Origin: Curvibacter sp. PAE-UM
GTDB taxonomy: Bacteria > Pseudomonadota > Gammaproteobacteria > Burkholderiales > Burkholderiaceae_C
Direction of reading: 5' to 3'
Assembly: GCF_001432305.1 (NCBI RefSeq)
Contig: NZ_KQ483358.1
Location: 1,248,881 to 1,312,880, forward strand
DNA: 64,000 nt
Each line of letters opens with the position of its first letter. The stretch's first letter is position 1. A model generated the notes under the pieces. It had not been told where the DNA came from. It saw only the letters and a list, made by a program, of their open reading frames with translations, and did not search any database. Positions 26,381-48,235 of this stretch are shown in pieces. A program made the translations under genes and the position numbers.

Positions 26381-26473
26381 GCGGTGTCGGGTTCTGGTGG
26401 CGATCCAGACAGGATGGGAGGGTCCACTATACACTTGGGGGTATCCTGGGGCGATCCCATCCACGATGCAGCC

Positions 26474-34987: not shown

Positions 34988-37036
34988 ATGAGCGTTTTGA
35001 AGACTCCTCCCACGCCTGAACTCGCCCGCCGCATGGCCAACGCCATCCGCATGCTGGCGGTCGACGCCGTCGAGCAGGCCAAGTCCGGCCACCCCGGTGC
35101 GCCCATGGGCATGGCCGACATTGCCGAAGTGCTGTGGAACCGCCACCTGCGCCACAACCCGGTCAACCCGCAATGGGCCGACCGCGACCGTTTCGTGCTC
35201 TCCAACGGCCATGGCTCCATGCTGCTGTACGCCTTGCTGCACCTCACCGGTTATGACCTGCCGATGGAGGAGATCAAACGCTTCCGCCAGCTGCACAGCA
35301 AGACCGCCGGTCACCCCGAAGTGGGCGTGACGCCCGGCGTGGAAACCACCACCGGCCCCCTGGGCCAGGGCATCGCCAATGCCGTGGGCATGGCGCTGGC
35401 CGAGAAGCTGATGGCGCAGGAATTCAACCGCGACGAGCTGACCATCGTGGATCACCACACCTACACCTTCCTCGGTGACGGTTGCATGATGGAGGGTATC
35501 AGCCACGAGGCCTGCTCGCTGGCCGGTACGCTGCGCCTGTCCAAGCTCATCGCGCTCTACGACGACAACGGCATCTCCATCGACGGCCATGTCGAAGGCT
35601 GGTTTACCGACGACACGCCGGCGCGTTTCCGCGCTTACGGCTGGCATGTGATTCCTGGTGTCGACGGCCACGATCCCGCCGCCATCGACCGCGCCATCAC
35701 CGAGGCGCGCGCGCAGGCGCAGCGCCCCGATGGCAAGCCCACCCTGATCTGCTGCAAGACCGTGATCGGCCAGGGTTCGCCCAACAAGGCCGGCACCCAC
35801 GACGTGCACGGCGCCGCACTCGGTGCGGCCGAGGTCGCCGCCACGCGCGAAGCGCTGGGCTGGACCGCTGCGCCTTTCGAGATCCCCGCCGACGTGGCCC
35901 AGGCCTGGAATGCCGTGACACGCGGCCAGGCCCTGCAGGAAGAGTGGCGGCAGCGTTTCGAGCGTTACCGCACGCTCTATCCGGAGGATGCGGCCGAGTT
36001 CGAGCGCCGCATGCAGGGTGACCTGCTGCCCGCATTCGGCGAGCGCCTGTCGCAGATCTTCGAGACCGTCGCCGCGCGCGCGGACGCCGTGGCCACGCGC
36101 AAGGCCAGCCAGAATGCGCTGGACCTGCTTAGCCCCCTGCTGCCCGAGTTCTTCGGCGGCAGCGCCGACCTGACCGGCTCCAACCTGACCAATTTCAAGA
36201 ACTGCACGCTGGCCGGACGTGATGTCTGGGGTAACCACCTGTCCTACGGCGTGCGCGAGTTCGGCATGGCCGCCATCATGAATGGCATCGGCCTGCACGG
36301 GGGCTACATCCCTTTTGGGGGCACCTTCCTGACCTTCAGCGACTACAGCCGCAACGCCATCCGCATGGCCGCGCTGATGAAGCAGCGTGTGGTGCATGTG
36401 TTCACGCACGACTCCATCGGCCTGGGCGAAGACGGCCCCACGCACCAGTCGGTCGAACACGTGCCCTCGCTGCGCATCATTCCCAACCTCGACGTCTGGC
36501 GCCCGGCCGACAGCCTGGAGACGACGGTGGCCTGGGTCTGCGCCATCGAACGCCGGGACGGCCCCAGCGCGCTGGCCCTGTCGCGGCAGAACCTGCCGCG
36601 CCTGGCCGACCGCGCCGAGCTGGCCGCGCGCATCCGTCGCGGTGGCTACATCCTGGCCGAGCAGGTCGAACCCGAGGCCGTGATCATCGCCACCGGCTCC
36701 GAAACCTCGCTGGCCATGCTGGCGCATGCGCAACTGGCCAAGGAAGGCATCAGGACGCGTGTGGTGTCCATGCCCTGCAGCAATGTGTTCGACCGCCAGC
36801 CCCGGATCTACCAGGACACCGTGCTGCCGCTGGACCTGCCCGCCGTAGCCGTGGAGGCCGCGCATCCGGATTTCTGGCGCAAGTACGTCGGACGCCGCGG
36901 TCACGTGGTGGGCATCGCCAGCTTCGGCGAGTCGGCGCCGGCCAAGGACCTGTACCCGCACTTTGGCATCACGGTGGAAGCCATCGTGCAGGCCGTGCGG
37001 GGGCTGGTGCGTGAAGGTGCCGCAGCGGTCGCCTGA
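34988..37036 (+). CDS. cbbT: transketolase
   Basis: 682 residues. Thiamine-diphosphate enzyme of the regenerative phase. [17 protein letters not shown] near the N-terminus, the ThDP/Mg segment [14 protein letters not shown], the acceptor site and the C-terminal domain [14 protein letters not shown] are present. The ATG is one base after the cbbP stop, so the two genes are tightly linked. The nearly complete identity of the motif set with the plasmid/chromosomal cbbT group is expected for the operon. Confidence 0.96.
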
Positions 37037-37057
37037 TTTTTTGTCAGATTTACTTCC

Positions 37058-38762
<1,705 letters not shown>

Positions 38763-38774
38763 TCGGAGCCAAGC

Positions 38775-39968
38775 ATGAACTTCCTCCGATTCCAGACCCT
38801 GTGCGAGCAGGGCAAAGCCAAGGGCCAGCGCGTCTTCATCCGCGCCGACCTCAACGTCCCGCAGGACGACCGTGGCGCCATCACCGAAGACACCCGCATC
38901 CGCGCCAGCCTGCCCTGCATCCGCATGGCCCTGGACGTCGGTGCTGCCGTTTTGGTCACCTCCCACCTGGGCCGCCCTGTGGAGGGCGAATTCAAACCCG
39001 AAGACAGCCTGGCCCCCGTGGCCCGGCGCATGGCCGAACTGCTGGGTCGCGAGGTGCCCCTGGTGGCCAACTGGGTCGACGGCGTCAGCGTGGCCCCCGG
39101 CCAGCTCGTGCTGCTGGAGAATTGCCGTTTAAATAAGGGCGAGAAAAAGAACAGCGAAGAACTGAGCAAAAAGATGGCCGCCCTGTGCGACATCTTCGTG
39201 CACGACGCCTTTGGCACCGCCCACCGCGCCGAAGCCAGTACTTACGGCATCGCCCAGTACGCCAAGACCGCCTGCGCCGGCCCCCTGTTGGCGGCCGAGA
39301 TGGACGCCATCGGCAAGGCCCTGAGCGCCCCCAAACGCCCCCTGGTGGCGATTGTTGCCGGCTCCAAGGTCAGCACCAAACTCACCATCCTGAAGTCCCT
39401 GGCTGACAAGGTCGACCAGCTCATCGTGGGCGGCGGCATTGCCAACACCTTCATGCTGGCCGCCGGCCTGAAGATCGGCAAGAGCCTGGCCGAGCCCGAC
39501 CTGCTGGCGGAAGCCCGGGCCGTGATCGAAGCCATGAAAGCCCGGGGCGCCGAAGTGCCGATCCCCGTGGACGTCGTCACGGCCAAGGAATTCAAGGCCG
39601 ATGCCAAAGCCACCATCAAGAAAGCCACTGAAGTCGAAGCCGATGACCTGATCCTGGACATCGGGCCCGAGACCGCGAAGAAATTGGCCGAACAACTCAA
39701 AGCCGCCGGCACCATCGTCTGGAACGGCCCGGTGGGCGTGTTCGAGTTCGCGGCCTTCGAGAACGGCACGAAAGAGATCGCCAAGGCGATTGCCCAGTCC
39801 AGCGCCTTCAGCATCGCCGGCGGTGGCGACACCCTGGCGGCGATTGCCAAGTACGGCATCGAGAAGAACGTGGGCTACATCTCCACGGGCGGGGGCGCCT
39901 TCCTGGAGGTGCTGGAGGGCAAGACCCTGCCGGCTTTCGAGATCCTGGAGAAACGCGCCCGGGGTTGA
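38775..39968 (+). CDS. cbbK: phosphoglycerate kinase
   Basis: 397 residues. Phosphorylates 3-phosphoglycerate. The N-domain opens with [20 protein letters not shown] is the substrate loop, and the C-domain carries [12 protein letters not shown], the nucleotide-binding [10 protein letters not shown] and the closing [12 protein letters not shown]. It starts 12 bp after cbbG. The following 85-bp gap before cbbA has no strong terminator. Confidence 0.97.
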
Positions 39969-40053
39969 ATCATTTCCGTTCGGTTCACGACGACCTCCGC
40001 GTGAGGCCGCAGGGGACTGTTTTTCAAAATTTCATACACGACAGGACGACACC

Positions 40054-41091
40054 ATGGCATTCGCATCCCTTCGACAGGTTCTCGATCACGCCGCCGAGCA
40101 CGGTTACGGCGTGCCGGCCTTCAACGTCAACAACCTCGAACAGGTGCTGGCCATCATGGAAGCGGCCCAGGAAACCGACAGCCCGGTCATCCTGCAGGCC
40201 TCGGCGGGCGCGCGCAAATACGCGGGTGAGCCCTACCTGCGCCACCTGATGCTGGCGGCCGTTGAGTCGCACCCGGACATCCCGGTGGTGGTGCACCAGG
40301 ACCACGGCACCTCGGCGGCGGTCTGCCAGCAGTCGATCCGCTCCGGTTTCACCAGCGTGATGATGGACGGCTCGCTGATGACGGACGGCAAGACCCCGGC
40401 GAGTTACGACTACAACGTGGACATCACGCGCCGTGTCTGCGAGATGGCGCATCCGGTGGGTGTGTCGGTCGAAGGCGAGCTCGGTTGCCTGGGGTCGCTG
40501 GAGACCGGTGAGGCGGGTGAAGAAGACGGTGTGGGCGCCGAGGGCAAGCTCACGCACGACATGATGCTGACCGACCCGGTGCAGGCCAAGGACTTCGTCG
40601 CGAAGACCGGTGTCGATGCGCTGGCCATTGCCATCGGCACCAGCCACGGCGCCTACAAGTTCACGCGCAAGCCCACCGGTGACATCCTGGCCATCGACCG
40701 CATCGCGGCCATCCACGCGCAGATCCCGAACACGCATCTGGTGATGCATGGTTCGTCCAGCGTGCCGCAGGAGTGGCTGGCCATCATCCGCCAGTACGGC
40801 GGCGACATCAAGGAAACCTACGGCGTGCCGGTGGAGGAGATCCAGCGCGGCATCAAGAGCGGTGTGCGCAAGATCAACATCGACACCGACATCCGCCTGG
40901 CCATGACCGGCGCCATGCGCGAGATCTTCGCCAGGCAGCCCAGCGAGTTCGATCCGCGCAAGGCGCTGGCCGCTGCCAAGAAGGCTGCGCGCGGTGTGGT
41001 CAAGGCGCGTTTCGAGGCCTTCGGCTGCGCCGGCATGGCCTCGAAGATGAAGCCCATCGCTCTGGAAGTCATGGCTGCGCGTTACGCCTGA
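40054..41091 (+). CDS. cbbA: class II fructose-bisphosphate aldolase
   Basis: 345 residues. Metal-dependent condensation of triose phosphates in the cycle. VHQDHGTS carries the catalytic Asp and a zinc His, [18 protein letters not shown] the loop, and the HGAYKF and MHGSSSVP segments zinc and phosphate ligands. Preceded by an 85-bp gap after cbbK and by AGGACGACACC. It is the last gene of the cbb operon. Confidence 0.96.
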
Positions 41092-41122
41092 GAATTTTCA
41101 ACAACCCACCCGAAGAGACCCC

Positions 41123-41431
41123 ATGAAATTGATCCCCATCGTCCTGGCTGCCACCGTACTGGTGTCGATGCCCGCCTTCGCCAGCAAGGAAATCGCCAGC
41201 AAGAACGCCTGTCTGGCGTGTCACGCGGTCGATCGCAAGATGGTCGGCCCGTCCTTCCAGGATGTGGCCAGGAAGTACAAGGACCAGAAGGATGCCGAGG
41301 CCATGCTGGCCGGCAGCATCAAGAAGGGTGGGGCCGGCAAGTGGGGCCCGGTGCCCATGCCGGCGCAGGCCGCCCTGGCCGAAGTCGATGCCAAGACCCT
41401 GGCGACCTGGGTGCTGGCCGGCGCCAGATAA
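41123..41431 (+). CDS. class I c-type cytochrome, close to the SoxD C-terminal haem domain
   Basis: 102 residues with a Sec signal (cleavage near AFASKE). The mature protein of about 80 residues has the haem site CLACH and the axial Met region WGPVPMPAQ. By eye more than half of the residues match the second haem domain of SoxD in this window (SKYSCTACHAMDKKLVGPSF), with the same MPAQ and C-terminal helix. It lies 31 bp after cbbA, between the autotrophy and sulfur islands. It could be the electron acceptor of the sulfur-oxidising complex. Confidence 0.9.
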   Translation: MKLIPIVLAATVLVSMPAFASKEIASKNACLACHAVDRKMVGPSFQDVARKYKDQKDAEAMLAGSIKKGGAGKWGPVPMPAQAALAEVDAKTLATWVLAGAR

Positions 41432-41458
41432 GTTTCGTACAGAGACGGAAAAGAAGAA

Positions 41459-41490
41459 GGGGCGGTCCTGCGGGACCGCCCCTTGCATTT
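41459..41490. terminator. bidirectional hairpin between convergent genes
   Basis: GGGGCGGTCC and GGACCGCCCC form a 10-bp stem around TGCG between the cytochrome gene and the convergent CsoR-like gene. T-rich sequence follows on the minus strand (TTCTTCTTTT) and TTGCATTT on the plus strand. Confidence 0.65.
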
Positions 41491-41500
41491 CAGCGCTGGC

Positions 41501-41818
41501 TTAGCCGAATCTTTCCAGCAGGCGGGCCGACTTCTCGACTTCCTGCATGGCGTGTTCCTCGTTCTCGGCGTCGTAGACGGCCTCCATCACGGTGCAGGCC
41601 ATCATGCGGTAGAAGGCCTTGTCCATGGCCTTGCGGGCGGCCGACATCTGCAGCGCCACGTCTTCGCAACTGCGGCCCTCCTGAATCATCTCCACCAGAC
41701 CACGCACCTGGCCCTCGATGCGGCGCAGGCGGTTGACCACGTCTTTCTGGTGGTCGGCGCGGTAAATGGCGGACTTGGAGGCTTCTGCTGCGGGGGCGGC
41801 GGCTGGCTTTCTCGGCAT
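41501..41818 (-). CDS. CsoR/FrmR-family transcriptional repressor with atypical cysteines
   Basis: 105 residues, all-helical DUF156-type repressor (KDVVNRLRRIEGQVRGLVEMIQEGRSCEDV). Family sensors use a Cys near residue 36 and a His and second Cys at fixed spacing (copper), or two Cys 29 apart (persulfide-sensing CstR). Here the first is Cys51 and the second Cys75 comes only 24 residues later, one place before the family His, with Thr and Ala where His and Cys are expected. It may sense a thiol, persulfide or aldehyde. Perfect CsoR-type palindromes lie upstream. Divergent from the DUF302 gene. Confidence 0.85.
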   Translation of the reverse strand: MPRKPAAAPAAEASKSAIYRADHQKDVVNRLRRIEGQVRGLVEMIQEGRSCEDVALQMSAARKAMDKAFYRMMACTVMEAVYDAENEEHAMQEVEKSARLLERFG

Positions 41819-41895
41819 GGACGGCTCTCAGATACAGGCTGCAAGGCATTCAGTGTGCCAGATTTCAGCGGGTGGGGCACCTGGGTGTGGGGGTT

Positions 41896-41918
41896 TATAC
41901 CCTACCCCATAGGGTATA
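41896..41918. promoter_or_regulatory. CsoR-type operator 1
   Basis: TATACCCTA (41896-41904) and TAGGGTATA (41910-41918) are exact complements around CCCCA, the C-tract/G-tract layout of CsoR-family operators. It lies 78 bp upstream of the repressor start and about 120 bp before the divergent DUF302 gene. Confidence 0.7.
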
Positions 41919-41975
41919 GGGTAGGTCCCTATGGTCGTAACCGTGAACTTGTTGCACGATGATGACAGCCGTACT

Positions 41976-41989
41976 TACCCTAGGGGGTA
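41976..41989. promoter_or_regulatory. CsoR-type operator 2
   Basis: TACCC-TAGG-GGGTA resembles operator 1 and lies about 50 bp before the start of the DUF302 lipoprotein gene. Two sites suggest control of both divergent transcripts. Confidence 0.55.
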
Positions 41990-42038
41990 GGGCTTCCAGT
42001 TTCTGTATATTTTCATGAAGGGTATTCAAGTGAGTTTT

Positions 42039-42605
42039 ATGAACCGAATTCTTCGCCGCCTGCCTCTGCTGGCTCTCGTTGTCCTGACCACCGGCTGCGG
42101 CACGATCAGCACGATCGGCAAGCTGGAGGACGGAGCGGGTGCCGAAGCCAGCCGCATGTGGGACCGCTGGGTCGACGCTGAGGGCGACATCGCCGTGGCC
42201 ACGACCTGGGAGCGCAAGGTCAAGGCGGGTGTGACGATCAACGATCTGGAACAGGCGCTGACCCAGATCGCCGCCGAACGCAATATGAAGGGTGTTGGCG
42301 ATCTGCCGCTGTCCAAGGAGCTGGAGGCGCGCACCGGCAAGCCGCAGAAGTTCCTCAAGGTCTACTCCTTCTGCACACCCGCCACCGCTCGCATGATGGT
42401 GGATTTCAGCCCGCACATGGCAGCCTATCTGCCCTGCCGCATCACCGTGGTGGAGAAGGAAGACGGCCTGTGGATGTACACGCTGAACATGGACATGATG
42501 GTCAAGATGGGACGCAAGCTGCCGTCTCCCTTGAAGGAAGAAGCCTGGAAAGTGCGCGAAACCATCTGGGACATGATGGAACGCGGCTCCAAGGGCGAGT
42601 TTTGA
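42039..42605 (+). CDS. DUF302-family lipoprotein
   Basis: 188 residues. A lipoprotein signal ends VLTTGC (modified Cys20). The C-terminal part has the DUF302 pattern FLKVYSFCTPATARMMVDF..LPCRITVVEKEDGLWMYTLN. DUF302 proteins are often found with sulfur-oxidation genes, function unproven. Starts at 42015 or 42039 are possible; the latter begins the signal peptide. It follows the CsoR-type operators, so it is probably the first gene controlled by the repressor, with the FadL gene next. Confidence 0.8.
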   Translation: MNRILRRLPLLALVVLTTGCGTISTIGKLEDGAGAEASRMWDRWVDAEGDIAVATTWERKVKAGVTINDLEQALTQIAAERNMKGVGDLPLSKELEARTGKPQKFLKVYSFCTPATARMMVDFSPHMAAYLPCRITVVEKEDGLWMYTLNMDMMVKMGRKLPSPLKEEAWKVRETIWDMMERGSKGEF

Positions 42606-42648
42606 GCGAAGAGTCAGCTAGACAAATTCATACAAACCAGGAGACAAC

Positions 42649-43959
42649 ATGAGCAAAACCAAACTTTTCCGCAACACGGCCATCGCCATGGTCGTGGCCG
42701 GCCCGCTGACGACCGCCATGGCCACCAACGGCTATTTCTCGCACGGTTACGGCATGAAGGCCAAGGGCATGGGCGGCGCGGCCGTGGCCATGACCGACAG
42801 CGCCTTTGCCGGGGCCAACAACCCGGCGGCCGCCGCTTTTGCCGGTAATCGCCTGGAGCTCGGCCTGGACGTCTTCATGCCCAAGCGTGGCTTCAGCCGG
42901 ACCGGCAGCGGCGGTTTCGGTGCGGGCAGTATCGACGTGGCGCAGGACAGCGACAGCAATACCTTCTACGTGCCCGAGTTCGGCTACAACCGTGCCGTCA
43001 GCGACACGATCGGCGTCGGCCTGGCCGTTTACGGCAACGGTGGCCTGAACACCGAATATTCTGGCGGCAAGGTCAACTGCGGCGCCGGTGCGGGCACTGC
43101 CAATGCGCTGTGCGGCTCGGGCAAGCTGGGCGTCGACATGATGCAGCTCGTGGTGGCGCCGACGTTTGCCTACAAGCTCAATCCCAGCCACTCGCTGGGC
43201 GTGTCGCCGTTGCTGGTGCATCAGCAGTTCAAGGCTGACGGCCTGCAGGCATTCGACAACGCTGCTGGTTTCCCGGCCATGACGAGCGCCAAGGGCAGCG
43301 TGACGAACAATGGCTATGACTCCAGCAACGGCTTCGGTGTGCGTCTGGGTTACCTGGGCAAGTTGAGCAACACGTTGAATGTGGGCGCTTCGTATTCGCC
43401 CAAGATCAGCATGTCCAAGTTCGACAAGTACAAGGGCCTGTTTGCCGATGGCGGCAACTTCGACATTCCCGAGAATTATTCGGCTGGCCTCAGTTTCCAG
43501 GCGACGCCGGCTGTCCTGGTGGCTTTCGACTACAGCTTCATCAAGTACAGCGGCGTGCCCTCAGTGGGTAATCCGAGCACCAATACTGGTTTGCTGGGCA
43601 CCGCGAATGGCAAGGGTTTCGGCTGGTCCGACATCAATGTGTACAAGCTGGGTATCGAGTGGCAGCAGTCGGGCAACCTGACGATGCGCGCCGGCGTGAA
43701 CGTGGGTGACAACCCGGTCAAGAGCCGCGATGTGACCTTCAACATCATCGCCCCGGGTGTCATCACGACCCATTACACCCTGGGTGGCACCTATGCATTG
43801 TCCAAGCAATCGGAAGTGACGCTGGCCTACATGTATGCGCCCGAGAACTCTGTTTCCGGCTCTTCGATGTTTAACGGCATCCAGGCTGGATCCGGGGGTA
43901 CCGAAACCATCAAGATGTCCCAGCAGTCCCTGGGTATCCAGTTCGGCTGGAAGTACTGA
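42649..43959 (+). CDS. FadL/OmpP1-family outer-membrane channel
   Basis: 436 residues, beta-barrel with signal peptide (cleavage near AMATNG). The N-terminal motif NGYFSHGYGMKAKGMGG and the hatch region NNPAAAAF are typical of OmpP1/FadL/TodX proteins, which pass hydrophobic compounds across the outer membrane. The last residue region QSLGIQFGWKY is the C-terminal beta-strand with final aromatic. It lies in the DUF302 transcript, in front of the sox genes. Import of sulfur or organic sulfur compounds is a plausible but untested role. Confidence 0.87.
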   Translation: MSKTKLFRNTAIAMVVAGPLTTAMATNGYFSHGYGMKAKGMGGAAVAMTDSAFAGANNPAAAAFAGNRLELGLDVFMPKRGFSRTGSGGFGAGSIDVAQDSDSNTFYVPEFGYNRAVSDTIGVGLAVYGNGGLNTEYSGGKVNCGAGAGTANALCGSGKLGVDMMQLVVAPTFAYKLNPSHSLGVSPLLVHQQFKADGLQAFDNAAGFPAMTSAKGSVTNNGYDSSNGFGVRLGYLGKLSNTLNVGASYSPKISMSKFDKYKGLFADGGNFDIPENYSAGLSFQATPAVLVAFDYSFIKYSGVPSVGNPSTNTGLLGTANGKGFGWSDINVYKLGIEWQQSGNLTMRAGVNVGDNPVKSRDVTFNIIAPGVITTHYTLGGTYALSKQSEVTLAYMYAPENSVSGSSMFNGIQAGSGGTETIKMSQQSLGIQFGWKY

Positions 43960-43980
43960 TCGGGTCTGAGACCCAAGGTC

Positions 43981-44011
43981 AAAGGGCCGGGCTTGCCCCG
44001 GCCCTTTTTTT
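43981..44011 (+). terminator. intrinsic terminator after the FadL-type gene
   Basis: AAAGGGCCGGG and CCCGGCCCTTT form an 11-bp stem around CTTGC, followed by seven T. It ends the DUF302-FadL unit before the next cytochrome gene. Confidence 0.9.
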
Positions 44012-44064
44012 GCCGTTTGCACGGGTGGTTGCCCGCTGTCCCCGTCTTCGCTAATCTAGTCACC

Positions 44065-44382
44065 ATGCACAAATACCTCGCCATCCCGTTTTTCATGCTT
44101 GGCAGTGTGGCCGGGGCCCAGGTTCCCCACGAATTCCGGGGCGCCGATCTGAAGCTGGGCGAGAAGCTGATTGCCGAGAGCAAATGCGTGGCTTGTCACC
44201 AGCAGAAGGTGGGGGGCGACGGCAGCGCCATCTACAAGCCGGCCGGACGCATCAACACGGCGGGTTACCTGCGCGGCATGGTCGAGCAGTGCAATACGGA
44301 GCTCAATCTGGGCTTTTTCCCGGAAGAGGTCACGGCCGTTGCCGCTGTACTGAACCGGGATCATTACCGTTTCACAAAGTAA
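44065..44382 (+). CDS. small c-type cytochrome next to the sox genes
   Basis: 105 residues with a signal peptide (cleavage near VAGAQV). One haem site CVACH at residues 41-45 (SKCVACHQQKVGG) and an extra Cys near residue 75. The C-terminal part (VEQCNTELNLGFFPEEVTAV) differs from classical class I cytochromes, and no clear axial methionine follows the haem site, except Met72. It is recognised only as a c-type cytochrome of the type found near sox genes. It is not SoxX, which lies at 49129. Confidence 0.75.
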   Translation: MHKYLAIPFFMLGSVAGAQVPHEFRGADLKLGEKLIAESKCVACHQQKVGGDGSAIYKPAGRINTAGYLRGMVEQCNTELNLGFFPEEVTAVAAVLNRDHYRFTK

Positions 44383-44386
44383 AAAA

Positions 44387-44404
44387 TAAACCCCCGGGGG
44401 TTTA
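44387..44404. promoter_or_regulatory. 18-bp perfect palindrome upstream of the ArsR-type gene
   Basis: TAAACCCCC is followed directly by GGGGGTTTA, so the 18 bases are a perfect palindrome. The C-tract/G-tract layout resembles the CsoR-type sites at 41.9 kb, so the same repressor could act here as well. It begins 5 bp after the cytochrome stop and lies 80 bp before the ArsR-type gene. Confidence 0.55.
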
Positions 44405-44450
44405 GTCGGGATACGCGTAAACACCTAGGGACATATTTCGTGGAATCTAT

Positions 44451-44470
44451 ATATTCGCGTATGTGAATAT
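44451..44470. promoter_or_regulatory. ArsR-type operator before the repressor and sox genes
   Basis: ATATTC (44451-44456) and GAATAT (44465-44470) are exact complements around 8 bases. The site overlaps the AT-rich region 14 bp upstream of the ArsR-type gene, which is the usual place of an autoregulatory operator. soxC follows in the same direction. Confidence 0.65.
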
Positions 44471-44483
44471 TTAGATGTAGCAA

Positions 44484-44819
44484 ATGAGTAACGGGACGGC
44501 AGCACAAACAACGATCGCCGGCTACGAGGCAGCCGCCGAGTTGTTCGGCGTGCTGTCCACGCCGATCCGGCTGCGCATCATCGGTGCGCTGTGCGGGGGT
44601 GAGAAGAACGTTTCGCAGCTGCTGCAGGAGATCGAGGTGTCGCAGCCCAATATGTCGCAGCAGCTCAATGTGCTGTACCGGGCGGGCGTGGTGGACAAGC
44701 GGCGCGACGGCGCGCAGATGTATTACCGCATCGCGGACGAGACGGTGGTGCGGGTCTGCAAGGCGGTGTGTGCGCGAACGGACGATGGAACAGAAGGGCG
44801 CGAGGCTCAGGCGAACTGA
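44484..44819 (+). CDS. ArsR-family repressor upstream of sox genes
   Basis: 111 residues, winged-helix ArsR fold (ELFGVLSTPIRLRIIGALCGGEKNVSQLL, QPNMSQQLNVLYRAGVVDKRRDGAQMYYRI). It is the probable sox repressor. Relatives such as SqrR and BigR sense persulfide with two cysteines. Here there are Cys37, Cys92 and Cys96, and by hand alignment none falls on the BigR positions, which places the sensing chemistry in doubt. The gene is 56 bp upstream of soxC in the same direction, and a palindrome precedes it. Confidence 0.87.
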   Translation: MSNGTAAQTTIAGYEAAAELFGVLSTPIRLRIIGALCGGEKNVSQLLQEIEVSQPNMSQQLNVLYRAGVVDKRRDGAQMYYRIADETVVRVCKAVCARTDDGTEGREAQAN

Positions 44820-44875
44820 GTCGAGCGTGGGCAGAGGAATCGCCAGCTGATGGCAACGATAGCAAGGAGAGTGTG

Positions 44876-46240
44876 ATGCAGGACAACTTGAGTTCGGGCA
44901 GGATCCGCAAGGCGCCCGAGAATTATCTGGACCGCGACGGGATCCAGACCGTCGTGGCGGAGGCCAAACAGGGTCGCCGCAATTTCATCCGCAACGCGTT
45001 TGCTGCGGCTGCCGCGGGTGCCGCCGGCACCGCTGCGCTGGCCCAGGGCAATCCGGTGCCCACCGAAGGCGGGGACCCCAACATCCTGAACCTGCCCGAG
45101 CACAGCAAGAGCCTGGGCCAGGGCGTGGCCGCCGATGACGGCTACGGCAAGCCCTCGAAATTCGAATCCAATGTGCAGCGCCGCCAGAGCCCGGGCCTGA
45201 CCCAGACCACGCAGGCTTCGGTCTCGTTCGCACCTTTGCAGTCGCTGTTCGGCATCGTCACGCCCAGCGGCCTGCACTTCGAGCGTCACCACCAGGGCTG
45301 GTGGGACATCGATCCGTCCAAGCATCGTCTGATGGTCAACGGCATGGTCAAGGCCAACAAGGTCTTCACCATGGACGAGATCATGCGCCTGCCGGCCGTC
45401 TCGCGCTTCCACTTCATCGAGTGCGGCGCCAACACCGCCGTCGAGTGGGGCAACGTGGCCGTGCCGACCGTGCAGTACACCCACGGCATGATTTCCTGCA
45501 GCGAATTCACCGGCGTGCCGCTGATCACCCTGCTGGAGCTGGCCGGGGCCGACCTGAAGAAGGGCAAGTTCGTGCTGGCCGAGGGCGCCGACGGCTCCTC
45601 CATGACCCGCACCATCCCGATGGAACTGATCACCTCAGGTGAAGTGATCGTGGCCTATGGCCAGAACGGCGAGATGCTGCGCCCCGAGCAGGGCTACCCG
45701 CTGCGCCTCGTGGTGCCGGGCGTGCAGGGTGTGAGCTGGGTCAAGTACCTGCGCCGCATCGAGGTGGGCGACATGCCTTATGCGGCCAAGGACGAGGCCG
45801 TGCACTACATGGACCTGCAGCCCAGCGGCCTGCATCGCCAGTACACCAACCTCCAGGAATGCAAGAGCGTGGTGACCACGCCCTCCGGCGGCCAGGTGCT
45901 GCTGGACAAGGGTTTCTACAACATCTCCGGTCTGGCCTGGTCGGGTCGCGGCAAGGTGAAGCACGTGGACGTGTCGGCTGACGGTGGCCGCAACTGGCGC
46001 CGCGCGCGCCTGGAAAACCCCGTGATGTCCAAGGCGCTGACGCGCTTCAACATCGACTGGGTGTGGGACGGCAAGCCGGCCATCATCCAGAGCCGTGCGA
46101 CCGACGAGACGGGTTATGTCCAGCCCACGTACAAGCAGTTGCGCGCCGTGCGCGGCACGCGTTCGATCTATCACAACAATGCCATCCAGTCGTGGCTGGT
46201 GCAGGAAAGCGGTGAGGTGAAAAATGTCCAGGTTTCGTAA
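44876..46240 (+). CDS. soxC: SoxC, molybdenum subunit of sulfane dehydrogenase
   Basis: 454 residues. With SoxD it oxidises the sulfane sulfur bound to SoxY. A Tat-type signal RRNFIRNAF lies near residue 34 and is followed by an Ala-rich hydrophobic region. The sulfite-oxidase-type molybdenum domain shows FHFIECGANTAVEWG with the Cys ligand, then SPGWVG-like and dimerisation domain segments (GLAWSGRGKVKHVDVSADGG). A GTG one codon earlier is possible; the ATG with AAGGAG is used. It overlaps soxD by 17 bp. Confidence 0.95.
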   Translation: MQDNLSSGRIRKAPENYLDRDGIQTVVAEAKQGRRNFIRNAFAAAAAGAAGTAALAQGNPVPTEGGDPNILNLPEHSKSLGQGVAADDGYGKPSKFESNVQRRQSPGLTQTTQASVSFAPLQSLFGIVTPSGLHFERHHQGWWDIDPSKHRLMVNGMVKANKVFTMDEIMRLPAVSRFHFIECGANTAVEWGNVAVPTVQYTHGMISCSEFTGVPLITLLELAGADLKKGKFVLAEGADGSSMTRTIPMELITSGEVIVAYGQNGEMLRPEQGYPLRLVVPGVQGVSWVKYLRRIEVGDMPYAAKDEAVHYMDLQPSGLHRQYTNLQECKSVVTTPSGGQVLLDKGFYNISGLAWSGRGKVKHVDVSADGGRNWRRARLENPVMSKALTRFNIDWVWDGKPAIIQSRATDETGYVQPTYKQLRAVRGTRSIYHNNAIQSWLVQESGEVKNVQVS

Positions 46241-47342
46241 TGCCGTTCTGACGGTCGCCCTCCTGGCGGTGGCTGGTGTCGCAGCTGCCCAGTCGACCAA
46301 ATACCCGGGTGTGGGCCGCAATGCCACGCCCAAGGAAGTGGCAGCCTGGGACATCGACGTGCGCCCCGACTTCAAGGGCCTGCCCGCCGGTTCCGGCAGC
46401 GTGGCCAAGGGCCAGGACGTGTGGGAGGGCAAGTGCGCCCACTGCCACGGCATCTTCGGTGAGTCCGGCGAAGTGTTCAGTCCCCTGGTGGGCGGCACCA
46501 CGGCCGAGGACATCAAGACCGGCCGCGTGGCCAAGCTGACCGACCCTTCTTTCCCGGGTCGTACCACCCTGATGAAGGTGCCCACCGTCTCGACGCTGTG
46601 GGACTACATCAACCGCGCCATGCCCTGGAATGCGCCCAAGTCGCTGAGCACCGATGAGGTGTACGCCGTGACGGCCTTCCTGCTGAATCTCGGCGGCATC
46701 GTGCCTGACAACTACGTGCTGTCGGACAAGAACATCCGCGACGTGCAGGCCCGCATGCCCAACCGCAACGGCATGACGACCGAGCACAACATGTGGCCCG
46801 GCCCGGAGTTCAGCAAGGTCAAGAAGGCCGACACCAGCAATGTGGCCTGCATGAAGGATTGCACGCCGGAGCCCAAGGTGGCCTCCTTCCTGCCGGACTA
46901 TGCGCGTAATGCCCACGGCAATCTGGCCGAGCAGAACCGCCTGGTCGGCCCGCAGCATGGTGCCGATACCACCAAGCCCGAGCCCAAGGGCGCGGGTGCC
47001 GCGGCGGTCGCTGCCCCCGTGGCCGCAGCCGCCCCTGCCAAGGAGCAAGCCAAGCCCGCAGTGGCGGCCAAGCCGGCGGCTGGCGGTGCAGACAACAAGG
47101 CGACCCTGGCGCTGCTCTCCAAGTACAGCTGCACGGCCTGCCATGCCATGGACAAGAAACTGGTGGGTCCGAGCTTTGCGGACATCGCCAAGAAGCATGC
47201 CGGCAAGGCTGACTACCTGGCCGGCAAGATCAAGAACGGCGGCTCGGGTGTCTGGGGTCCGATCCCGATGCCGGCGCAGTCCTTGAGCGAGGCGGAGGCC
47301 AAGACCATCGCCGCCTGGTTGGCTGCAGGCGCGGGAAAATAA
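46224..47342 (+). CDS. soxD: SoxD, dihaem cytochrome subunit of sulfane dehydrogenase
   Basis: 372 residues with a signal peptide (cleavage near AAAQST). The first haem domain has CAHCH near residue 71 and the family N-terminal part. A 60-residue Ala/Pro/Lys linker follows, then the second haem domain with CTACH and MPAQ. It takes electrons from SoxC. The second domain is highly similar to the separate cytochrome at 41123. The reading frame begins inside the soxC 3' end. Confidence 0.95.
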   Translation: MSRFRNAVLTVALLAVAGVAAAQSTKYPGVGRNATPKEVAAWDIDVRPDFKGLPAGSGSVAKGQDVWEGKCAHCHGIFGESGEVFSPLVGGTTAEDIKTGRVAKLTDPSFPGRTTLMKVPTVSTLWDYINRAMPWNAPKSLSTDEVYAVTAFLLNLGGIVPDNYVLSDKNIRDVQARMPNRNGMTTEHNMWPGPEFSKVKKADTSNVACMKDCTPEPKVASFLPDYARNAHGNLAEQNRLVGPQHGADTTKPEPKGAGAAAVAAPVAAAAPAKEQAKPAVAAKPAAGGADNKATLALLSKYSCTACHAMDKKLVGPSFADIAKKHAGKADYLAGKIKNGGSGVWGPIPMPAQSLSEAEAKTIAAWLAAGAGK

Positions 47343-47361
47343 GGTATTAAGTACAAATACC
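47343..47361. promoter_or_regulatory. inverted repeat upstream of soxY
   Basis: GGTATT (47343-47348) and AATACC (47356-47361) are exact complements around AAGTACA directly after the soxD stop, in an AT-rich gap of 72 bp. It may be a regulatory site or a weak 3' hairpin. Confidence 0.4.
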
Positions 47362-47414
47362 GATAGGTCAGGGTAGATTTTTTCATTAGCATGGACTTAT
47401 TCAAGGAGCATCAC

Positions 47415-47870
47415 ATGCAAACTCGTCGCGAGACACTGAAACAAAGCGCCGTGGTGGCGGGCCTGCTGGCCTCTGCCGGCCTGATCCCGCAGCAGGCTGC
47501 GGCTTACGAGAAGGTTGCCTTCGACGCCAAGACCGCGGCCGAAGTGGCCAAGGCCCTGGGCGCTGGCGCTCCGGTGGAGAGCAAGGACGTGACCATTGGT
47601 GGTCCGGACATTGCCGAGAACGGTGCGGTGGTGCCGCTGACGGCCAGCACCACGCTGGCTGGTGTCAAGCGCATGCTGATCCTGGTGGAGAAGAACCCGG
47701 CGGCGATGGTGGCCATGTTCAACGTGAGCGATGCGGTGGAAGCCAACTTTGCCACGCGCGCCAAGATGGGGCAGTCCTCCGATGTGTACGCCGTGGCCAT
47801 CATGAACGACGGCAAGGCCTTCTTTGCGAAGAAGGAAGTCAAGGTCACGCTGGGCGGCTGCGGCGGTTAA
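47415..47870 (+). CDS. soxY: SoxY, sulfur carrier subunit
   Basis: 151 residues with a Tat-type signal (MQTRRETLKQSAVVAG). The C-terminal GGCGG places the carrier Cys149 on a flexible tail, where thiosulfate is attached. It forms the SoxYZ carrier with SoxZ, which starts 53 bp downstream. Preceded by AAGGAG. Full family length. Confidence 0.96.
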   Translation: MQTRRETLKQSAVVAGLLASAGLIPQQAAAYEKVAFDAKTAAEVAKALGAGAPVESKDVTIGGPDIAENGAVVPLTASTTLAGVKRMLILVEKNPAAMVAMFNVSDAVEANFATRAKMGQSSDVYAVAIMNDGKAFFAKKEVKVTLGGCGG

Positions 47871-47923
47871 GCGCTGACGGACCCATCCACCCACAGTATT
47901 CATACAGATTTAGGAGTATCAAA

Positions 47924-48235
47924 ATGGCAGATCCGATGCGCATTCGCGCGCAAGCCGCTGGCGACAAGGCCACCGTGCGCGTACTCATGAGCCACGAAAT
48001 GGAATCCGGACAACGCAAGGACTCGGCAGGCAAGGTTGTGCCGGCCTGGTTCATCCAGGACGTCAGCGCGTCTCTCAACGGCAAGGTTGTGATGACCGCC
48101 GAGTGGGGCCCGGCCGTGTCCAAGAACCCGTTCATGCAGTTTGTGGTCAAGGGCGCCAAGGCCGGTGACAAGATTGCCGTGACCTGGAAGGACAACAAGG
48201 GCGACAGCCGCACCGACGAAGCCACGGTGTCCTGA
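47924..48235 (+). CDS. soxZ: SoxZ, carrier partner of SoxY
   Basis: 103 residues with no signal of its own, as expected because it is exported with SoxY. The opening MRIRAQAAGDKATVRVLMSHEME and the FIQDVSASLNGKVVM segment are typical of SoxZ. Ribosome site TAGGAG lies 7 bases upstream. A strong terminator follows it. Confidence 0.96.
   Translation: MADPMRIRAQAAGDKATVRVLMSHEMESGQRKDSAGKVVPAWFIQDVSASLNGKVVMTAEWGPAVSKNPFMQFVVKGAKAGDKIAVTWKDNKGDSRTDEATVS

Follow-up and report, generated by a model that had tools for sequence, protein, structure and literature searches.

A CsoR-type branch with a displaced second cysteine and its likely DUF302-FadL target beside the sox genes of Curvibacter sp. 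PAE-UM

The window analyzed here, the whole 64,000-nucleotide stretch from Curvibacter sp. PAE-UM, contains, between its cbb and sox genes, a gene for a CsoR/RcnR-family repressor whose two cysteines, Cys51 and Cys75, are 24 residues apart. Across a gap that holds two perfect palindromic operators, this gene faces genes for a DUF302 lipoprotein and a FadL-family channel. Judged from alignments, a cysteine at +24 relative to the first cysteine of the family, without His at +25 or Cys at +29, marks a wider branch of CsoR-type proteins, which we name C24 and of which the window protein is a member. By analogy with the repressors CstR and ScCsoR, it is on balance probable that the window repressor comes off its DNA in response to persulfide or polysulfide, using a second thiol other than theirs, and that it controls the DUF302-FadL pair.

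The repressor and its cysteine pair

The repressor gene (41501..41818, minus strand, 105 aa) is assigned to its family by the Pfam profile PF02583 (E=1.6e-20, 73.7 bits against a cut-off of 22.8); no NCBIfam model scores above its cut-off for the product, and the nearest ones, RicR, FrmR and RcnR, all fall far below. Alignment to solved members and relatives places Cys51 at the first cysteine of the family, Thr76 at the family histidine (+25) and Ala80 at the second cysteine (+29), with Cys75 as the residue immediately preceding the histidine position. The copper site (Cys, His at +25, Cys at +29) is absent from the protein, which has Thr76 and Ala80 instead, as are the CstR cysteine pair at +29 (here +24, with Ala at +29) and the RcnR/InrS-type histidine at +25, where a Thr is found. 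The alignment thus bears out the original prediction that the cysteines are 24 apart, that Thr and Ala replace the family histidine and second cysteine, and that neither the copper layout nor that of CstR is present; the spacing, described there as new, is real but is conserved across a wider branch rather than being a one-off. Copper CsoR, the nickel and cobalt sensors RcnR/InrS and the formaldehyde sensor FrmR share the fold and the Pfam family. In the alignment, the +25 position is His in CsoR (4m1p) and InrS and Thr or Ser in C24; RcnR and FrmR also carry His at +25.

AlphaFold2 predicts three helices (15-46, 51-82 and 87-104; mean pLDDT 86.7) from an input of 30 hand-picked orthologs, in all of which both cysteines are invariant and none of which has Thr or Ser at position 75. 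The predicted structure matches the three-helix fold of solved CsoR/RcnR members; the best Foldseek matches in the PDB are to S. pneumoniae CstR (E 8e-4, 26-27% identity), followed by InrS, FrmR and CsoR, all with modest E-values. Both cysteines fall in the same predicted helix (51-82), about 36 A apart if that helix is straight, so that they would pair between subunits rather than within one. The protein is taken to be a DNA-binding repressor tetramer, as is typical of the family, and GC-rich palindromes are present and conserved near its gene.

Among 112 ortholog rows (80 loci from named genome contigs and 32 from sampled genomes, with some species present twice and the window gene counted twice), Cys51 is found in 111 and Cys75 in 104. 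The single row lacking Cys51 (L104) is a mis-called open reading frame that shows both cysteines upon realignment. Position 75 is Thr in five rows and Ser in two; these seven rows (L025, L032, L033, L034, L052, L055 and L090), mostly from Hydrogenophaga, have neither a DUF302 neighbor nor a TACCC operator, and the four of them that are included in the tree form one branch (support 99/88). Given the lack of both DUF302 and the operator, either Cys75 is dispensable in these proteins or their function has changed, and the rows are consistent with a relaxed or changed function. The four Thr/Ser75 loci for which upstream DNA was read (L025, L032, L034 and L052) have in common a GTAC-rich stretch upstream of csoR.

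Operators and the DUF302-FadL genes

Operator 1 (41896..41918), the one nearer to csoR, is a perfect 9-bp inverted repeat, TATACCCTA-N5-TAGGGTATA, with the core TACCCCATAGGGTA at 41903-41916; operator 2, TACCCTAGGGGGTA (41976..41989), identified by pattern search, lies 25 bp ahead of the listed DUF302 start codon. No other perfect TACCC-N4-GGGTA site exists in the 3,632,663-base genome, in which the same pattern read backwards, used as a control, occurs 14 times. Two CsoR-type operators ahead of the divergent DUF302 and FadL genes had been proposed from the sequence, and both prove to be perfect and unique in the genome. When two mismatches are allowed, the window contains 14 sites against a shuffle mean of 11.3, which is no excess, so that sites carry information only when they are perfect or nearly so.

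Operator 1 is kept in most relatives with a divergent DUF302 gene. Within 330 bases of csoR, the 42 loci with DUF302 beside csoR show a perfect site in 31 cases, one mismatch in seven and two mismatches in four, whereas among the 37 loci without DUF302 there is one perfect site (L030) and one with two mismatches, with at least three mismatches in all others (p 1.3e-11 without correction for kinship; 79 of the 80 loci, L064 being dropped for having too little upstream DNA). The pattern occurs 40 times in 78 ortholog loci, compared to at most two occurrences for any of 19 permuted half-sites, six times in the 29 other C24 loci, compared to none for permuted half-sites, and never in 88 loci of family members with His+25. 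These counts indicate that the operator goes with the C24 branch and that its main partner in the present group is DUF302. Perfect sites exist somewhere in 94 of 200 family genomes, so that mere presence in a genome is not diagnostic.

The Curvibacter genome contains 30 one-mismatch sites, of which 28 were examined (all except the one at window position 26430 and, for a site that is repeated, its third copy at 3626711), and only one of these (L123) is convincing. It lies about 25 bp before the first gene (MFP) of an MFP-RND-OsmC operon that ends with a second PF02583 gene of this genome, which also encodes Cys+24, and the window repressor and this paralog may share operators. The paralog is located at G000:C1:844928-845173 (L131:10839-11192). 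Other one-mismatch sites, for example those at L126, L275 and L281, lie shortly before genes with no evident link to sulfur. A gene for a PhsA-like molybdoprotein (NCBIfam match below cut-off) is preceded, at L284:2064-2240, by a pair of operator-like sites, each with one mismatch and spaced 120 bp from the other; a gene read as TauE-like lies downstream of this molybdopterin oxidoreductase gene. As a second target this locus is weak and was set aside, the sites being absent from the sole ortholog checked (L285).

The DUF302 lipoprotein (196 aa; 42015..42605, plus strand), identified by Pfam and alignment, retains its lipobox Cys28 in all 49 aligned rows and Cys120 and Cys141 in 48 of the 49 (the window protein being counted twice). 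The gene for the outer-membrane channel of the FadL/OMPP1/TodX family (Pfam FadL/Toluene_X; 42649..43959, plus strand) follows after 43 bp, and the two are probably in the same operon. A terminator-like hairpin with a T run follows fadL (43989..44004, plus strand), which suggests that DUF302-FadL is probably a separate two-gene transcript; another, with 12 pairs of which nine are GC, follows csoR (41457..41484, minus strand). The scan detected four hairpins in the region against a shuffle mean of 3.0 and is hence weak evidence by itself. Together, these features make DUF302-FadL the likely two-gene target of the repressor.

The sox side begins with a small cytochrome gene and a gene for an ArsR-family repressor (44484..44819, plus strand; Pfam, NCBIfam), which is perhaps a separate sox regulator. 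Next come soxC, a cytochrome gene in the place of soxD, soxY and soxZ (44768..48235, plus strand; Pfam, NCBIfam); soxC, soxY and soxZ score above NCBIfam cut-offs, and the cytochrome in the place of soxD has two c-type domains and no NCBIfam model above cut-off. Direct control of sox by the CsoR-type protein was considered and rejected in view of the terminator-like hairpin after fadL, the ArsR gene ahead of soxC, and the absence of the operator at loci where csoR adjoins the sox-side cytochrome gene (L010, L011, L012, L014, L016, L084 and L086, some of which probably belong to the same species; L018 is masked there). Regulation of the cbb genes, which are named in the window from translations alone, was likewise rejected: csoR is transcribed away from DUF302 and toward the last cbb-side gene, which converges on it, and the operators are in the csoR/DUF302 gap. 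A second soxYZ copy with sox-like neighbors and a GAP gene is located at G000:C1:718000-736000 (L132; compare window 34988-48235); the copies are near-identical to those of the window over the first 110 residues compared, and no csoR, DUF302 or FadL gene is found there.

DUF302 orthologs (E below 1e-80) are present in 17 of 200 family genomes, nine of which also carry a close csoR ortholog. In seven of the remaining eight, read at the sox cluster (L218-L224), DUF302 is 5 to 6 kb from soxY, which identifies DUF302, mostly with fadL, as a sox-linked module. A perfect site precedes DUF302 at L218 and L221, and both of these genomes carry other C24 genes (L250-L253). No site precedes DUF302 at L219 (two mismatches at best), L220, L222 and L223 (four), and the genomes concerned yielded no match to the csoR ortholog, save for a 25% match in G036. 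At L224 the site is degenerate (three mismatches) although the genome has a C24 gene (L254). Conversely, of the 21 sampled family genomes in which a close CsoR ortholog was found, 12 have no DUF302 ortholog (two of these 12 are 80% complete or less), so that in these organisms the regulator must either control different genes or have no target at all; one csoR-bearing genome (G038) has no SoxY match. At several loci without DUF302 (L024, L135 and L267), csoR is flanked by a putative epimerase gene and a putative tRNA CCA-transferase gene, and no operator is found.

Extent and genomic neighborhoods of the C24 branch

None of 245 PF02583 rows (repeats included; three are gapped at +29) combines Cys+24 with His+25 or Cys+29. 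A phylum-wide search detected PF02583 in 74 of 249 genomes, at 88 places; five of the 82 places read encode Cys+24 (L183, L189, L191, L192 and L193), all within the class of the window organism, and the six places left out comprise two of its own, one already included and three that are short or broken. A search of the class seeded with the relative at L109 matched 22 of 229 genomes and added L226, L227, L228, L230 and L231 to C24. In these searches the branch was seen only in this class, Gammaproteobacteria in the GTDB sense, where C24 members bearing Cys75 were found in eight families besides that of Curvibacter. The literature search turned up no description of a Cys+24 branch; Fakhoury 2021, on CsoR persulfide sensors, was outside the reach of that search and may describe such a cluster.

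In the tree built from all columns, 58 rows with Cys+24 and five without it form one branch (97/86, with the bootstrap not settled), and the single CstR row falls outside this branch, on a long branch of its own. A quick tree computed without the trait columns and four long rows requires two changes. The AU test, run likewise without these four rows, gives no reason to reject C24 as one branch (p 0.616), and the tree that holds C24 together scores 11.5 log units higher. Given the small number of alignment columns, we regard C24 as only a probable clade.

The genomic context of the branch was compared with that of family members with His+25. Among 29 C24 loci outside the immediate branch of the window protein, 12 have sulfur-oxidation genes nearby, 12 have RND or OsmC genes, five have neither, and none has CopA/CopZ; the 88 His+25 loci include 12 with CopA/CopZ, one with RND and none with sulfur genes. 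The difference in sulfur neighbors (12 of 29 versus 0 of 88, p=7e-9) persists when the loci that supplied query genes are excluded (8 of 24 versus 0 of 88, p=1.5e-6), although both p values ignore kinship, and the 12 sulfur-linked loci are not independent since eight come from the family of the window organism and the other four from four families. The genes scored were persulfide dioxygenase/rhodanese, YeeE/YedE, SQR and Sox, within at most 3.5 kb and, at many loci, only about 1.5 kb on each side; genes were called SQR or dioxygenase from Pfam superfamily matches, NCBIfam matches below cut-off, and context.

At L259, csoR is accompanied by two YeeE/YedE-type genes, an operator, and SQR-like, TauE and MBL-fold dioxygenase-like genes, with the TACCC-N4-GGGTA core directly before the SQR-like/YedE genes. 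At L260, dioxygenase-like and YeeE/YedE genes lie about 1 kb from csoR and an operator precedes this YedE-YeeE-dioxygenase-like operon. At L262, where csoR is accompanied by YeeE/YedE, SQR-like and dioxygenase-like genes, the operator separates the SQR-like gene from the dioxygenase-like one. A dioxygenase-rhodanese fusion is encoded near csoR at L109, L255, L251, L253 and L254. At L263, csoR adjoins genes for SoxB (NCBIfam equivalog, 851.9 bits against a cut-off of 550), SoxA, SoxZ and SoxY, and a perfect operator is absent from the 9 kb examined.

Candidate signal and mechanism

The absence of metal-binding residues, the displaced second cysteine and the frequent sulfur-gene neighbors, taken together, suggest that C24 proteins are probably reactive-sulfur sensors. 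Under the mechanism that we propose, the CsoR-fold protein would repress the divergent DUF302-FadL operon and perhaps, via operator 1, its own gene, with the reduced repressor occupying both TACCC-N4-GGGTA sites. When persulfide or polysulfide accumulates in the cytoplasm as sulfur is oxidized, Cys51, where helix 2 begins, would become persulfidated, and Cys75' of the partner subunit, near the far end of helix 2, would join it, either in a di- or polysulfide bridge or by stabilizing the persulfide. The DNA would then be released and DUF302-FadL produced; these two proteins may act on a sulfur compound at the outer membrane. From helix geometry, position +24 is about 100 degrees around the helix from +25 and is not on the +25/+29 face; by heptad reasoning, it might lie next to the same core layer but across from +29.

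The persulfidation step is proposed because, in the available text of the published accounts, CstR links its two cysteines and ScCsoR needs both. CstR of S. aureus and S. pneumoniae has the CsoR fold, two cysteines and control of sulfane-sulfur genes, as is proposed here for the window protein. In S. aureus CstR, Cys31 and Cys60 (+29, as against +24 in the window protein) form di- to tetrasulfide links between neighboring subunits (PMC9774590, available in part), and the CstR homolog YrkD is described as the regulator of a gene cluster that includes rhodanese-like, sqr and pdo genes (PMC9918477, PMC9774590). According to the accessible parts of PMC7533328, ScCsoR of Streptomyces coelicolor is a sulfane-sulfur repressor with cysteines at 37 and 66 (again +29), its gene adjoins dioxygenase, rhodanese and sulfite-transporter genes, and it binds ATACC-n6-GGTAT, which fits the TACCC-N4-GGGTA core in the window. 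Since copper CsoR sites are reported there to be similar, the operator does not name the ligand. TTHA1953 of Thermus thermophilus, a CsoR-family protein with two cysteines that controls sox and whose DNA binding is weakened by oxidation, differs in its cysteines (Cys39/Cys68, +29), its site (TACNNTACNNNNGTANNGTA) and the location of its regulon far from its own gene; it is reported, in the portion of the paper available, to be unresponsive to NaHS, which counts against a sulfur signal (PMC10318464).

A variant in which Cys51 alone senses a persulfide, an electrophile or an oxidant, with Cys75 structural or a bystander, seems unlikely. Its best argument is the Hydrogenophaga branch, which has Thr or Ser at position 75 while Cys51 is invariant; FrmR, too, functions with a single cysteine. 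Cys75, however, is otherwise kept across the eight additional families, and the seven exceptional rows lack the DUF302 neighbor and the operator. The ScCsoR precedent cuts both ways, as only Cys37 is persulfidated but release needs both cysteines (PMC7533328, in the text available). Still less probable is a general sensor of peroxide, hypochlorite or disulfide stress, in which an interprotomer disulfide would cause release with no specificity for sulfane sulfur. The OsmC family includes peroxidase members, and OsmC or RND genes are found beside 12 of the 29 other C24 loci (OsmC being the only peroxide-defense gene in the neighbor search). TTHA1953 is likewise weakened by disulfides driven by peroxide or Cu(II) (PMC10318464, same portion), but sulfide or persulfide oxidation and sulfur transport genes are neighbors in four other families in addition to that of the window organism.

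Linear binding of Cu(I) by Cys51 and Cys75' with release of DNA would agree with the CsoR fold and the GC-rich CsoR-type operators but is very improbable given the loss of both the family histidine and the second cysteine and the distribution of CopA/CopZ, found near none of the other C24 loci and near 12 of the His+25 loci. Formaldehyde is hardly a credible signal: FrmR operates through a Pro2-Cys cross-link formed by formaldehyde, and the window protein does start with Met-Pro, but Pro2 is poorly kept (16 of 112 rows, with script-called starts) and the NCBIfam FrmR model scores 28.7 bits against a cut-off of 133.

Returning to release by persulfide or polysulfide, the genomic context supports the part of the original prediction that invoked a sulfur or thiol signal but not the suggestion that this signal is one not yet described, given that 12 of the 29 other C24 loci lie near known sulfur genes. 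With persulfide dioxygenase, rhodanese, SQR, YeeE/YedE and Sox as neighbors, the C24 proteins appear to respond to known sulfane-sulfur signals via a different placement of thiols; an undescribed signal is probably not involved, and the branch rather represents another way of placing two thiols on the CsoR scaffold. A bolder scenario, which we put forward tentatively as possible but less than likely, is that a second CsoR branch reached a two-thiol sulfane-sulfur switch separately from CstR, with the partner cysteine one residue before the lost metal histidine and perhaps flanking the same helix layer from the other side, and that in sulfur-oxidizing Comamonadaceae this switch controls a DUF302-FadL system importing elemental sulfur or polysulfide across the outer membrane to Sox. 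In Acidithiobacillia, a DUF302 gene of 191 aa and unknown function is located between soxA and soxB, with no CsoR or FadL partner mentioned in the available text (PMC5037610, PMC5248467), whereas in the window the DUF302 gene has fadL as its partner and lies opposite the repressor gene.

The sulfur-responsive repressors of sox and sqr genes described in the literature, as far as its accessible text extends, are the ArsR-type SoxR and SqrR and one CsoR-type protein in Thermus. What the present analysis contributes is a further CsoR-type branch, for which both the operator sequence and the likely target, two genes at the sox locus, are specified. The natural rearrangement of the thiol pair offers a test of how the CsoR scaffold converts sulfur chemistry into DNA release, and the association with the repressor provides a lead to the function of DUF302 and of the sox-linked FadL. 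The simple rule of Cys+24 and no His+25 would prevent the misannotation of such proteins as copper sensors.
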